Below, in pieces: positions 34,458 through 42,071 of a stretch of DNA of 42,071 nucleotides (the stretch's first letter is position 1; each line of letters begins with the position of its first letter). The DNA comes from Nitrospirota bacterium (GTDB taxonomy: Bacteria; Nitrospirota; Thermodesulfovibrionia; Thermodesulfovibrionales; Dissulfurispiraceae). Where the stretch lies: the NCBI GenBank assembly GCA_009773415.1, contig WSNO01000023.1, forward strand, positions 1 through 42,071. The letters are read 5' to 3'. A program made the position numbers and the translations under genes. The notes beneath the pieces are model-generated. The model saw nothing but the letters and a program-made list of their open reading frames with translations, was not told the origin of the DNA and searched no databases.

Positions 34458-35153
34458 ATGGCGAATCATCAGAGCATAAAGGAGTGGCCCGAGGCGGAGC
34501 GGCCGCGTGAGCGGCTGCTGAAGCACGGCGCTGAAAACCTGTCGGACGCGCAGTTGCTCGCTATCCTTCTGCGCACCGGCAACAAGGATGCGAGCGCAGT
34601 GCAGCTCGGCCTCTCCCTGCTGGATGTGTATAAGACGCTCAGCAGCATCGAGAGCGCTTCATTGCGGGACATGCAGAAGCACACGGAACTGAAAGGCATC
34701 GGCTCCGCAAAGCTGTCACAGATAAAGGCGGCATTTGAGCTCGGCCGCCGGCTTCTGCGCGAAGAGAGCGGCTCTCAGTCGCACTTCTCCTCAAGCCAGG
34801 CGGTACATTCGTACTTTGCTTCCCGCTTGAGGCATCTGAAAAAAGAGCTTTTCGTCGCGCTCTTTCTTGATGCCAAAAACAAGCTCATCCGTGAGTACAG
34901 GGTATCGGAGGGGACACTGACAAACTCTCTGATTCATCCGCGGGAAGCGTTCAAGCAGGCTGTCAAGGAGTCCGCGGCAGCGGTAATTTTTGTGCATAAC
35001 CACCCAAGCGGCGACCCGACGCCGAGCCATGACGATCTTGCCGTGACCCGACGTCTCAGGGATGTCGGCGAACTCCTCGGCATTCCGGTGCTGGACCACA
35101 TAATTATCGGCGACGAAACATATGTGAGTCTTAAGGAGAAGGGCGTTTTATGA
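34458..35153 (+). CDS. radC: RadC-family protein (JAMM/MPN+ domain)
   Basis: 231 residues. A helix-hairpin-helix part (ELKGIGSAKLSQIKAAFELG) precedes an MPN+ domain with the metal motif HNHPSGDPTPSHDD. DHIIIGDETYVSLKEKG at the C terminus is typical. The catalytic pattern is intact, yet the cellular function of RadC remains uncertain; a DNA-repair role was long assumed. It directly follows metG. Confidence 0.93.
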   Translation: MANHQSIKEWPEAERPRERLLKHGAENLSDAQLLAILLRTGNKDASAVQLGLSLLDVYKTLSSIESASLRDMQKHTELKGIGSAKLSQIKAAFELGRRLLREESGSQSHFSSSQAVHSYFASRLRHLKKELFVALFLDAKNKLIREYRVSEGTLTNSLIHPREAFKQAVKESAAAVIFVHNHPSGDPTPSHDDLAVTRRLRDVGELLGIPVLDHIIIGDETYVSLKEKGVL

Positions 35154-35240: not shown

Positions 35241-35840
35241 ATGATCACACGTGCAGTCATCAGCGTATCGGACAAGACCGGAGTCGTTGAGTTCGCCCGG
35301 GAACTGGCGGCGCTCGGGGTCGAAATCCTCTCCACCGGCGGCACCGCAAAAGCGCTGCGCGAAGGAGGAGTCCCCGTCATTGAGGTGTCAAGCTATACCG
35401 GATTCCCCGAAATGATGGACGGTCGGGTAAAGACACTGCACCCGATGATTCACGGCGGGCTGCTCTACCGCAGAAAAAACGCAAGAGATGTTGAGGACTG
35501 CGCGCGGCAGGGAATCAAGCCGATCGACATGGTCGTCATCAATCTCTACCCGTTTGAGGCGACCATCGCGAAGCCGGATGTGACGTTTGACGACGCCGTC
35601 GAGAATATCGACATCGGCGGTCCGGCGATGCTGCGCGCGGCGTCCAAGAATTTTCAGGACGTCACGGTGCTCATCGACCCTGCGGACTATCGTCCGGTGC
35701 TGGACGAGATGAAGGCGAATGCCAATAGTGTCGGTGCTGCAACCAACCTCAGGCTTGCGCAAAAGGTGTTCGCGCATACGGGACGGTACGATTCGCTGAT
35801 TGCCGCGTATCTTGCCAAAACCATGGAACAAAGAGGATAG
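35241..35840 (+). CDS. purH: Stand-alone IMP cyclohydrolase (N-terminal half of PurH)
   Basis: 199 residues, all of the MGS-like IMP cyclohydrolase domain: [65 protein letters not shown]. It ends at [11 protein letters not shown], just where the AICAR formyltransferase domain starts in the usual 510-530-residue bifunctional PurH. The stop is followed by the next gene, with no leftover formyltransferase sequence, so this is a genuine split form rather than a recent truncation. The missing step (AICAR to FAICAR) must be encoded elsewhere, as a separate PurH C-terminal domain or PurP. Confidence 0.92.
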
Positions 35841-35849
35841 TCGGCGGAT

Positions 35850-36746
35850 ATGCGCTCCTTCAAGGAGATAAAGTCTCACTATTATTTCACCGATGAAGAT
35901 GTCCGCGCTCTGGTTTCGGTGCGTCAACTCATGATCGAGCAGGCAGGCCGCGCGATGGGCCGGGTTGACCAGTGGATTCAGAATCTGCCGGAAGCGGCTA
36001 AGCTGTTCAAGGGCGAAGAGCAGAAAAAGCATGTTGCCGCAATGCGCCAGCAGTGGTTTATCGGCCTGTTTTCCGGTGTCTATGACTCCAAGTATTTCGA
36101 AAAGCTCATCCGCATCGGGCAGGCGCACGTCAAATTCGGCATCGAAGCACACTTCATGAACCGCACCATCAGCATGGTGCGCACGCTCTGCATCGAAATT
36201 CTGCACCACAACGTTGAGGACGACGAAGAACGCACCCGCGTCTTCATCTCGGTCGAGAAGATCCTTGACATCAGCCTTGACGTCATTACCTCAAGCTACA
36301 TTGAAGAGGAGATGCGGAACTATTCGCCCGCCTACCGCGTAAAAAACCTGCTCGTGACATACACCGAAAAATTCGCTCAGGCGATGAACCTTGTGCTCGT
36401 TTTCGCACTCATCGGACTTACGATCGGGGTGGTCTGGCTCTTTGTGACCGATCTCATAAACATCACGAGCGACCCCAACTTTTCGCACGGGATCATCACC
36501 GCCCTCGGCTCCCTGCTGATACTCTGGGTCATGATTGAGCTGATGAACACCGAGATCAAGCACCTCAAGGGCGGCAAGTTCCGCATCAGCGTCTTTGTGG
36601 GCGTGGCGCTCGTCGCCTTTATTCGCGACACGATGATTAAGGCCTTGCGCCATGACAGCATGCACGAAATGTACTATCTCATCCCCCTTATTCTGACGCT
36701 GGGGGTCGTTTTCTGGCTCGTGACAAAATCGGAAGAGAGGAACTGA
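35850..36746 (+). CDS. Protoglobin-domain sensor fused to a PsiE-like membrane domain
   Basis: 298 residues in two parts. Residues 1-165 form an all-helical globin-coupled-sensor domain. The key segment is KLIRIGQAHVKFGIEAHF, where His93 in the pattern IGxxHxxxGI is the expected proximal haem ligand, and QWFIGLFSG precedes it. Residues 170-298 hold four hydrophobic helices with ILWVMIELMNTEIKHLKGG and VALVAFIRDTMIKAL, resembling the phosphate-starvation PsiE family. The product may be a membrane protein responding to O2, CO or NO. It sits nine bases after purH and five before purD, so it is cotranscribed with purine genes. Function is unknown. Confidence 0.8.
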   Translation: MRSFKEIKSHYYFTDEDVRALVSVRQLMIEQAGRAMGRVDQWIQNLPEAAKLFKGEEQKKHVAAMRQQWFIGLFSGVYDSKYFEKLIRIGQAHVKFGIEAHFMNRTISMVRTLCIEILHHNVEDDEERTRVFISVEKILDISLDVITSSYIEEEMRNYSPAYRVKNLLVTYTEKFAQAMNLVLVFALIGLTIGVVWLFVTDLINITSDPNFSHGIITALGSLLILWVMIELMNTEIKHLKGGKFRISVFVGVALVAFIRDTMIKALRHDSMHEMYYLIPLILTLGVVFWLVTKSEERN

Positions 36747-36751
36747 CACCC

Positions 36752-38026
36752 ATGAAAGTGCTGGTCATCGGCGGAGGCGGCCGCGAGCATGCCATTGTCT
36801 GGAAGCTCGCGCAGTCCCGCCATGTCGACAAAATATACTGCACCCCCGGCAATGCCGGCATTGCCGAAATTGCCGAATGCATCGAGGTCGGGCCGGACGT
36901 TGAAGCGCTGATCGACTTCGTCAAGTACAACTGGATTGACATCACCATAGTCGGACCGGAAGAGCCGCTTTCCCGCGGCATCGTGGATGCGTTTGAAAAG
37001 GAAGGCCGCAAGATACTCGGCCCCACAAAGGCGGCGGCTCAGCTGGAATGGAGCAAGGCTTTCTCAAAGGATTTCATGCGCCGCCACCGCATTCCGACCG
37101 CGGATTACAAGGTATTTACCTCGTATATTCACGCGCAGGAGTATGTGCGCATGATGGGCGCGCCGCGCGTCATCAAGGCGGACGGGCTTGCGGCGGGAAA
37201 AGGCGTCGTGGTCGCCTCGACCGTTGATGAGGCGATGCAGGCGATTGATCTCATCATGAAAGACCGCGCCTTCGGCGCGGCCGGCGACAGGGTCATTGTC
37301 GAAGACTGCCTTGTCGGTGAAGAAGCCTCGTTCATGGTCTTTACGGACGGCAAGACTATCGCGCCGATGGCGAGCGCGCAGGATCACAAGCGCATTTTCG
37401 ACAATGACCGCGGCCCGAACACCGGCGGCATGGGAGCATACAGCCCCGCGCCCGTCATCACGCCGGAAATGCAGGAGATTATCATGGCGACCGTCATGCG
37501 GCCTACAATTGACGGGCTGCAGGCGGACGGCATCAAATACAAAGGCATTCTCTACGCCGGACTGATGATAGCGGACAACAAGCCCTATGTCCTTGAGTAT
37601 AACTGCCGCCTCGGAGACCCCGAAACCCAGCCGGTGCTCTTCCGCCTTGAGACCGATCTTGTCGACATAGCGCTCGCCGTCGCTGATGAGCGGCTTGGCG
37701 ACATTGATATTGCGTGGAAGCCGGAACATGCCATCTGTGTTGTTATCGCCTCAAAGGGGTACCCCGGCGCGTACGAAAAAGGCGCGGTGATTTCCGGTAT
37801 CCGTGACGCGAACAAACATGAGAAGGTTGTTGTTTTTCATGCGGGCACGGCATTCGGCGAGGACGACGCGTGCGTTACCAGCGGCGGCCGCGTGCTTGGC
37901 GTAACAGCAAGCGGAGCCGACATCGTTGCCGCCCGCGACGCCGCCTACCGGGCGATACAGGATATTTCGTTCGACGGCATGCAGTTCCGGAAGGATATCG
38001 CGATGAAGGCAATTCGCACGGCATAA
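36752..38026 (+). CDS. purD: Phosphoribosylamine-glycine ligase
   Basis: Second enzyme of purine synthesis, joining glycine to phosphoribosylamine. 424 residues: MKVLVIGGGGREHAIVWKLAQS at the start, then the ATP-grasp signature RVIKADGLAAGKGVVVA. NTGGMGAYSPAP and EYNCRLGDPETQPVLFRLETDL are the other ATP-grasp and metal-binding motifs. Length and motifs are complete. It lies five bases after the globin-PsiE gene. Confidence 0.96.
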   Translation: MKVLVIGGGGREHAIVWKLAQSRHVDKIYCTPGNAGIAEIAECIEVGPDVEALIDFVKYNWIDITIVGPEEPLSRGIVDAFEKEGRKILGPTKAAAQLEWSKAFSKDFMRRHRIPTADYKVFTSYIHAQEYVRMMGAPRVIKADGLAAGKGVVVASTVDEAMQAIDLIMKDRAFGAAGDRVIVEDCLVGEEASFMVFTDGKTIAPMASAQDHKRIFDNDRGPNTGGMGAYSPAPVITPEMQEIIMATVMRPTIDGLQADGIKYKGILYAGLMIADNKPYVLEYNCRLGDPETQPVLFRLETDLVDIALAVADERLGDIDIAWKPEHAICVVIASKGYPGAYEKGAVISGIRDANKHEKVVVFHAGTAFGEDDACVTSGGRVLGVTASGADIVAARDAAYRAIQDISFDGMQFRKDIAMKAIRTA

Positions 38027-39764: not shown

Positions 39765-39840
<76 letters not shown>

Positions 39841-39967: not shown

Positions 39968-40378
39968 TCAGTTTATAGGCACCTCCCTGCGCTTGCCGCT
40001 TTTCGTCTTGTCCATAAGAATAAAGCCATGTTTGAGGTCCGCCCTATCCCAAGCAAGTCCTAGGTTTTCTCCACGGCGCATGCCAGTCTTAAGCGCCGTA
40101 ATAACAATCGGTCTCACCACTTCATTACAGGCACCCGCAAGTTTTCGGGCCAGTTCAACAGAGAGGTAATTTAGGCGGTTATTTTCCTCATTCAACATCT
40201 TTATCTTTGGGACATCAGGCCTGTTCAGCATCTTCCAATCAACTGCCTTTTGCAGCATGTCTGATAGCACAGCACTGAATCGGTTCACAGTAGCAGGTTT
40301 ATTCGGTATAGGCACGGTTGTATATTTGCCATCCGTCCCTTTGACCTGCCGCGTCTTTTTCCCCGCTTTTAGCCGCAT
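39968..40378 (-). pseudogene. Tyrosine recombinase (phage/island integrase), truncated
   Basis: The frame encodes 136 residues: part of the core-binding domain (NKPATVNRFSAVLSDMLQKA) and the start of the catalytic domain with the first active arginine in LKTGMRRGE. It stops after DKTKSGKRREVPIN, before the H-x-x-R and Tyr motifs. The N-terminal arm-binding domain is also absent. Both ends are therefore lost and it cannot recombine. Position next to tRNA-Ala and the drop in GC indicate a decayed integrated element. An inverted repeat, TGTAGC-N16-GCTACA, lies between it and the tRNA (39910-39937). Confidence 0.8.
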
Positions 40379-40470: not shown

Positions 40471-40800
40471 ATGCTTGAGGGACTTTTGGGGAACATTACG
40501 GTCGAGAAGATTCTGTTTTTTCTGCTGGTCTATGAGGAAGGCTATCCGCGTGGCATGGCCACAATATTCGACGTTCCGGTCAACAGGATTCAACAACAGC
40601 TCAGACGCCTTGAAGACAATGGCATTGTTGTCAGCAGACTGACCGGCAAGGTGAGGATTTACACGTTCAACCCGCGATACCCCTTTCTCAGAGAGCTAAA
40701 AGCCCTTATAGAGCGAGCTTTTGCATTCGTTCCGGATCAAGAGAAAGACAAGTACTATCGCCTGCGGACACGACCTCGACGAACTGGCAAACCATCATGA
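40471..40800 (+). CDS. Winged helix-turn-helix transcriptional regulator
   Basis: 109 residues with the pattern of a small wHTH: ILFFLLVYEEGYPRGMATIF, then VPVNRIQQQLRRLEDNGIVVSRLTGKVRIYTFNPRYPF, that is recognition helix and wing. A basic C-terminal tail follows (RLRTRPRRTGKPS). AGGAG lies six bases before the ATG. Together with the paired operator over its own promoter, it probably represses its own transcription, as antitoxin-type regulators do. The following gene is a nucleotidyltransferase-like protein, a known pairing in accessory regions. Confidence 0.8.
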   Translation: MLEGLLGNITVEKILFFLLVYEEGYPRGMATIFDVPVNRIQQQLRRLEDNGIVVSRLTGKVRIYTFNPRYPFLRELKALIERAFAFVPDQEKDKYYRLRTRPRRTGKPS

Positions 40801-40844
40801 AGATAAACTGATCGAAGATTGATAGCAAGGATCTTGCCGCTCTT

Positions 40845-41354
40845 GTGACGGAAACTCTGCAGCGCAATGGGATTGATGCTTTGCTCGTCGGAGGCGCTTG
40901 CGTTTCGATCTATACCGCCAATAAATATATTTCCGGCGATCTCGATTTTGTCTCTCATGGCACAATGAAAGAGATTGCAAAGACTCTTGAGCAGATCGGA
41001 TTTCACAAAAAAAGCTCACGCCATTTTGAGCGCAACGATTGCCAGTTTTTTATAGAATTTGTAGCGCCCCCCGCTGCTGTCGGCAGCGAGCCGATAACAA
41101 CGCCTTTTGAACTGACATCCAAATACGGGAAAATTCTCCTGCTCTCTCCAACAGATGCCATTAAAGACCGTCTTGCCGCCTATTATCATTGGAACGACTT
41201 TCAGGCACTCGATCAGGCGGTCATGGTTGCCAAAGATCAGAATGTCAATATCTCTGAAATCGAGCGTTGGTCTATTGCCGAAGGCTTCGGCGAAAAGTAT
41301 CAAAATTTCCTTCTGTCATGTACACCTCGATCACGCAAACGGAAACCCGATTAA
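40845..41354 (+). CDS. Nucleotidyltransferase-like protein (DUF6036/AbiEii-like)
   Basis: 169 residues from the GTG at 40845. LLVGGACVSIYTANKYISGDLDFV is the first part of the nucleotidyltransferase fold (GG with the D-x-D pair), followed by CQFFIEFVAPP as the third acidic strand and LLSPTDAIKDRLAAYYHWND as the conserved C-terminal helix. The start is unclear. The wHTH stop overlaps an ATG at 40797 (ATGA) in this frame, but TGA at 40809-40811 interrupts after MKIN; ATT at 40818 or GTG at 40845 would restart. The pair may be a toxin-antitoxin module; this is inference from context. Confidence 0.7.
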   Translation: MTETLQRNGIDALLVGGACVSIYTANKYISGDLDFVSHGTMKEIAKTLEQIGFHKKSSRHFERNDCQFFIEFVAPPAAVGSEPITTPFELTSKYGKILLLSPTDAIKDRLAAYYHWNDFQALDQAVMVAKDQNVNISEIERWSIAEGFGEKYQNFLLSCTPRSRKRKPD

Positions 41355-41745: not shown

Positions 41746-42071
41746 TCATGCTGCCCGCTCATGCGGCAGTATAGTCCAGCAAACCTCATCGGGCGTTTTG
41801 TAGTCAAGCGCCTGATGATGACGCCGGCAATTGTACTTCTCCATGTAGTTCGCTATCCCCTGTCTCAGTTCGATCATCGTGCCGTGTGCCTTCGGATGCA
41901 CCTCCTCGTATTTCAATGACCGCCACAGCCGCTCGATAAAGACGTTGTCCATCCACCGACCCTTGCCGTCCTTGCTGATTCTGATGCCATGCTCTTTGAG
42001 CATATCCGTAAAATCCGTGCTCGTAAACTGACTGCCCTGGTCGGTGTTGAATATCTCAGGACGACCATATC
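41746..42071 (-). mobile_element. IS3-family transposase (OrfB), partial at window end
   Basis: The frame runs off the window edge and reads YGRPEIFNTDQGSQFTS (second Asp), HGIRISKDGKGRWMDNVF, IERLWRSLKYEE (catalytic Glu) and ends HHQALDYKTPDEVCW plus a short tail. This is the C-terminal part of an IS3-type DDE transposase, intact as far as seen. It differs from the broken copy at 1-451, so two IS3 lineages are present. Confidence 0.92.

Follow-up and report, generated by a model that had tools for sequence, protein, structure and literature searches.

A protoglobin-PsiE fusion gene conserved between purH and purD in Nitrospirota, a putative haem-based membrane sensor

Gene content and domain architecture at the purH-purD locus

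The window (the whole stretch of 42,071 nucleotides that was analysed, from a Nitrospirota bacterium of the order Thermodesulfovibrionales) carries an ORF encoding a protoglobin fused to a PsiE-type membrane domain, flanked by purH and purD, with all three genes on the same strand. The whole analysis is based on sequence and prediction, the contigs are MAG-derived and gene starts are approximate. The features of the locus are the following:

34458..35153, + strand: radC-family gene, upstream, separated from purH by an 87-base gap
35241..35840, + strand: purH, IMP cyclohydrolase half only, 199 aa (TIGR00355)
35850-36746, + strand: fusion ORF, 298 aa, ATG start
35850..36314, + strand: Protoglobin domain, residues 1-155 (PF11563, 2w31 by phmmer, Foldseek, His93)
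36126-36128, + strand: codon of the proximal His93, within the Protoglobin domain
36315..36386, + strand: linker, residues 156-179 (predicted helices 125-158 and 160-207)
36387..36734, + strand: PsiE-type membrane domain, residues 180-295, four helices (PF06146)
36752..38026, + strand: purD, phosphoribosylamine-glycine ligase, 424 aa (TIGR00877, 556.7 bits)

The fusion begins 9 bases after purH and ends 5 bases before purD, the spacing given in the first-pass annotation, with which the coordinates of the neighbours (35840 and 36752) agree. Gaps this small are too short to hold a promoter or a terminator, and the fusion is most likely expressed together with purH and purD. Also, AGAGGA and GAGGA occur upstream of the fusion and purD start codons, respectively, as ribosome-binding sites would, and are considered putative sites of this kind. 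No RNA families were found in the neighbourhood of the fusion gene, and atpB lies beyond purD after a longer gap.

The upstream neighbour had been annotated as purH, which holds for the IMP cyclohydrolase half, yet the gene is not a complete purH: the TIGR00355 match of its 199 aa product covers positions 2-192 of 511, and the AICAR-transformylase domain is encoded on a separate contig of the same genome (G000:C60:79788-80597). In this genome purH is split, with IMP cyclohydrolase beside purD and AICAR transformylase elsewhere; the short purH is also found in many relatives of the class, and the full one in others.

Further along the window, two ORFs at 40471-41354 resemble a winged-helix regulator and a nucleotidyltransferase, the second without a Pfam match. 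A tRNA gene (39765-39837, + strand) has an integrase-like ORF fragment nearby (39968-40378, - strand) and a transposase-like ORF follows at 41746-42003, a likely integration site.

Both domain assignments made at first pass were borne out. Residues 3-155 of the fusion match Protoglobin (PF11563) with an E value of 1.5e-23 and 84 bits against a Pfam cut-off of 25, and residues 180-295 match PsiE (PF06146) with an E value of 3.5e-23 and 82.5 bits against a cut-off of 23.9, so that neither match can be attributed to chance. A spurious ORF was rejected on the strength of these scores and of the homologues found in relatives, and a one-off fusion was discarded given its presence at full length in 23 of 60 close relatives. 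The genome holds a single copy, with no further Protoglobin or PsiE match in it.

The structure predicted by AlphaFold2 has a globin part with pLDDT blocks mostly between 82 and 97, followed by four long C-terminal helices (160-207, 211-239, 246-266 and 271-297) with pLDDT of about 66-83; similar helices were obtained when the PsiE-type domain was predicted by itself. In the linker, the last globin helix comes to its end shortly past a run of three glutamates (EEE, 152-154) and leads into the first membrane helix; E152-E154 are conserved at 90% or more among fusion homologues. Positive residues are located in the loop that joins membrane helices 2 and 3, which is consistent with a cytoplasmic N-terminus. 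Within the PsiE-type domain, W226, E230, G241 and R259 occupy invariant columns (42 sequences); the absence of an invariant histidine there led us to reject a b-type cytochrome. Conservation of the PsiE part exceeds that of the globin in every group (63 vs 48% in the purine-linked copies).

To our knowledge, the PsiE family, named for phosphate starvation, has no assigned activity. Membership of the fusion in it is given by the PF06146 match together with the four predicted membrane helices, whereas the NCBIfam PsiE equivalog scores 18.8 bits against the 138 required. E. coli PsiE (b4030) aligns at E230 and R259 of the fusion with a weak overall match (18 bits), and differs from the fusion in that the PsiE-type domain of the latter is joined to a globin. 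Foldseek returned no solved-structure match for the fold of this domain below an E value of 1.2, and VIA-align 2 recovered just BAR-type helix bundles, with Z of 8.6 or less, in the background range for helical models.

Relationship to GsGCS and the haem pocket

The closest structural relative of the fusion is a sensor of Geobacter sulfurreducens, a kinship overlooked at first pass. Its globin domain (GsGCS, PDB 2w31) is the best PDB sequence match (phmmer, E 3e-33) and is also ranked first by Foldseek of the predicted fusion structure (rmsd 1.6, TMt 0.93). This domain has been crystallised and studied spectroscopically, with Pesce et al. 2009 cited for it in PMC4476040 and PMC3680402. The two globins are 38% identical and align without gaps across the pocket, and the model of the fusion globin fits the globins of GsGCS and AfGcHK, which bear haem, with an rmsd of about 1.6. 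GSU0935 was considered as the GsGCS locus and rejected, since it is a periplasmic chemotaxis haem sensor.

When the phylum to which locus L092 belongs was searched with the 2w31 sequence, 45 of 395 genomes gave close matches, nearly all of them in ORFs of about 300 aa. Protoglobin and PsiE were both matched in 42 of the 42 sequences scanned, from Nitrospirota and Desulfobacterota-type genomes. On sequence grounds, GsGCS very probably belongs with them to one old globin-PsiE family, its C-terminus being deduced from homologues that are 65% identical and below; no account of the role of its membrane half was found among open-licence papers.

The fusion shows the hallmarks of globin-coupled sensors, namely an N-terminal protoglobin, a proximal His-F8 and a fused C-terminal transducer, here of the four-helix PsiE type, and by analogy with them it may signal in a ligand-dependent manner through haem. 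AfGcHK, HemAT, DosC and BpeGReg share the protoglobin fold, the proximal His-F8 and the N-terminal placement of the sensor, but carry histidine kinase, chemotaxis or diguanylate cyclase domains as output, whereas the fusion has a membrane domain in this place. The earlier description of a PsiE-like output as unusual for such sensors was wrong in part, given how widespread the architecture is and that GsGCS itself is the closest structural relative. The globin-PsiE architecture was thus already known, and the purHD linkage seems to be the novel part.

The IGQAHVKFGI motif, proposed at first pass to contain the proximal histidine, spans residues 89-98, with His93 at F8. This histidine, Y11, W69 and G90 are invariant across an alignment of 112 sequences, which contains the GsGCS domain and has some species represented twice under different locus ids, and haem would be bound through His93. 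A haem pocket around this residue had been predicted, and invariance of His93 agrees with it; the distal residues, however, differ from those of GsGCS.

Position 40, which we take to be B10 from the alignment and the usual globin numbering, and position 66 (E11) are occupied by Asp and Arg in the window protein and its sister. AfGcHK, HemAT, DosC and BpeGReg have a B10 tyrosine and the window fusion lacks it. Of 48 Desulfobacterota copies, 44 carry Tyr at position 40; at position 66, His occurs in 23 copies and Leu in 16. Other purine-linked members carry His/Gln, Tyr/Val, Glu/His and more at positions 40/66, and they vary at V94 and further proximal-side positions as well; the clade outside the purine operon has Ser or Asn at 40 and Gln at 66. 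The His-E11/Tyr-B10 trait of GsGCS is absent from the window protein and variable at both positions in the family; judging from these sequences, it is not family-defining and its absence marks a variant. In GsGCS the distal iron ligand is His66-E11, which together with His-F8 gives a bis-histidyl state (PMC4476040), in contrast to the Arg66 and Asp40 of the window protein. Since Arg66 replaces His-E11, such a state is not expected in the window protein, and with its distal pocket changed in this way its ligand chemistry may be different from that of the Geobacter protein.

Distribution and genomic context of the fusion

In order to assess the conservation of the purine linkage, which the first-pass annotation expected in relatives, fusion loci were compared across genomes. 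Adjoining purH and/or purD genes are found at 34 of 80 database loci, usually in the order purH-fusion-purD and mostly with gaps from -1 to a few tens of bases. Exceptions are L022 (fusion-purH-purD), L063 and L080 (fusion-purD only) and L079 (without purD). A class survey drawn as 200 genomes was scored for linkage in the 37 that list both fusion and purD, and the two genes are at most 60 bases apart in 29 of them. Counted by lineage, the fusion lies between purH and purD in about 30-35. The first-pass reading had been staked on a protoglobin match and on persistence of the fusion and its linkage in close relatives, and all of these were found.

Genomes without an intact linked copy have purH and purD contiguous, with no space for the fusion, in 79 of 84 cases, indicating that the fusion is an insertion that has since been retained. 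In a tree from a short search, of which the starred forks are the trustworthy ones, the deepest Nitrospirota split has purine-linked copies on either side, and unlinked ones belong mostly to one nested clade. This is most simply read as a single ancient insertion into a pre-existing purHD pair, which was retained over a long time before a later departure. The outer flanks differ by branch, with radC and metG, a long CarB-length gene, or T2SSF on the other strand, so that the triple has been kept while its surroundings changed; in Thermodesulfovibrio, radC is not retained as a neighbour, and the gene upstream of purH is the long CarB-length one. This linkage seems unreported: among open-licence papers, PsiE combined with globin-coupled sensor or protoglobin gave no literature match, and the fusion combined with purine biosynthesis gave a single irrelevant one.

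One relative, G030, carries a reduced form of the gene (L162, region G030:C83:5221-5655), in which the first 23 residues are joined directly to the whole PsiE domain. About 155 globin residues are missing in frame, inside the contig, and the gene is still located between purH and purD. Either a natural PsiE-only protein or an error of assembly could explain it; were the assembly correct, the PsiE part would be of use without its sensor, and the globin dispensable in this relative.

Elsewhere the fusion has other neighbours. In the nested Nitrospirota clade (L029, L032, L036, L037, L047 and L054) it is followed by a gene for a CBS-pair protein and mostly then by one for an HPP membrane protein, which possibly form a separate operon with it. 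At five Desulfobacterota loci (L147, L149, L150, L151 and L154) it lies 3-21 bases past ndk and is followed by rlmN (4 of the 5 loci), a PNP-family phosphorylase and a PfkB kinase. At L084, L085, L088, L091 and L094, also in Desulfobacterota, it follows a RidA-type gene; a PNP-family phosphorylase is encoded farther upstream, and a convergent histidine kinase downstream. The recurrence of nucleotide genes beside the fusion across lineages is striking, as a pattern noticed after the fact. Further Desulfobacterota copies are found after hypF-hypD. In a Geobacter-like genome (L163:9277-10236) the fusion is convergent with a ferrochelatase gene, and no purine linkage was seen at that locus.

Candidate function and alternatives

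On balance, we lean modestly towards the view that the fusion acts as a haem-based sensor of a gas or of redox state, modulates a PsiE module in the membrane, is co-expressed with purHD and is tied to nucleotide or phosphate metabolism. The cytoplasmic protoglobin would bind haem via His93 and respond to a diatomic gas or to the haem redox state. This change would travel through the long last globin helix and the conserved EEE into the first membrane helix and cause the four-helix PsiE-type domain to shift state, with E230/R259 and the GGKF loop as its likely working part. With the gene inserted between purH and purD, the product would be made together with the purine enzymes, and the membrane response would scale with, or adjust, nucleotide and phosphate metabolism. 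In this scheme the domains, His93, the pattern of membrane topology and the conserved place in the operon are observed, whereas we infer haem binding, the ligand, the direction of the signal, the action of the PsiE-type domain and any causal tie to purines. Against it stand the distal ligands, unlike those of GsGCS and widely varying among purine-linked members, a globin largely missing from G030, the departure of a derived clade from the purine operon altogether and the lack of a solved relative revealing how PsiE acts.

The locus and its distant relatives offer a handle on a widespread sensor family that is without a functional explanation, and the PsiE family would gain a partner context from them. 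Placement among nucleotide genes also raises a specific question, namely whether haem ligation affects nucleotide or phosphate metabolism.

The main rival, which we consider rather unlikely, is that the fusion is a genuine haem sensor for a PsiE module and that purHD merely provides a convenient, strongly expressed site, with no purine function involved. The move of the nested clade from purHD to the CBS-pair/HPP membrane genes would fit this, as would the Desulfobacterota copies that neighbour hypF-hypD, have a histidine kinase close by or converge with ferrochelatase, and the fact that purHD functions without the fusion in most relatives. However, the position has been kept across wide divergence while the CarB-length gene, radC and T2SSF changed around it, and the fusion is cleanly absent from many relatives and is therefore not stuck in purHD. 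Also, three unrelated nucleotide-gene contexts recur, with the caveat that this was seen after the fact. A bolder form of the preferred sensor reading, in which the purine-linked branch is a dedicated gas/redox membrane regulator and the purHD, ndk and PNP placements express one function, the tuning of nucleotide or phosphate pools to respiratory gas state, appears unlikely.

Two further alternatives are less likely than the main rival. The globin could be a membrane-tethered haem enzyme, for example for NO or peroxide scavenging, with PsiE as its anchor, which we judge very improbable. Variable, often polar or charged distal residues would suit a reactive pocket, and PMC4020757 reports nitrite-reductase and peroxynitrite-isomerization activities in vitro for the protoglobin of Methanosarcina acetivorans. 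Yet the PsiE part is better conserved than the globin, the opposite of what an inert anchor predicts, G030 retained this part alone, and no reductase domain or partner was seen.

Sensing without haem is exemplified by the stressosome protein RsbR. It is highly unlikely that the Nitrospirota globin likewise senses something else, without usual haem binding and with the conserved PsiE part carrying the function: loss or variation of Tyr-B10 and His-E11, drift at V94 and other proximal-side positions and the globin deletion of G030 would agree with this, but haem loss should free His93, and all 35 purine-linked copies and all 28 others in Nitrospirota have kept this residue, together with Y11, W69 and G90.
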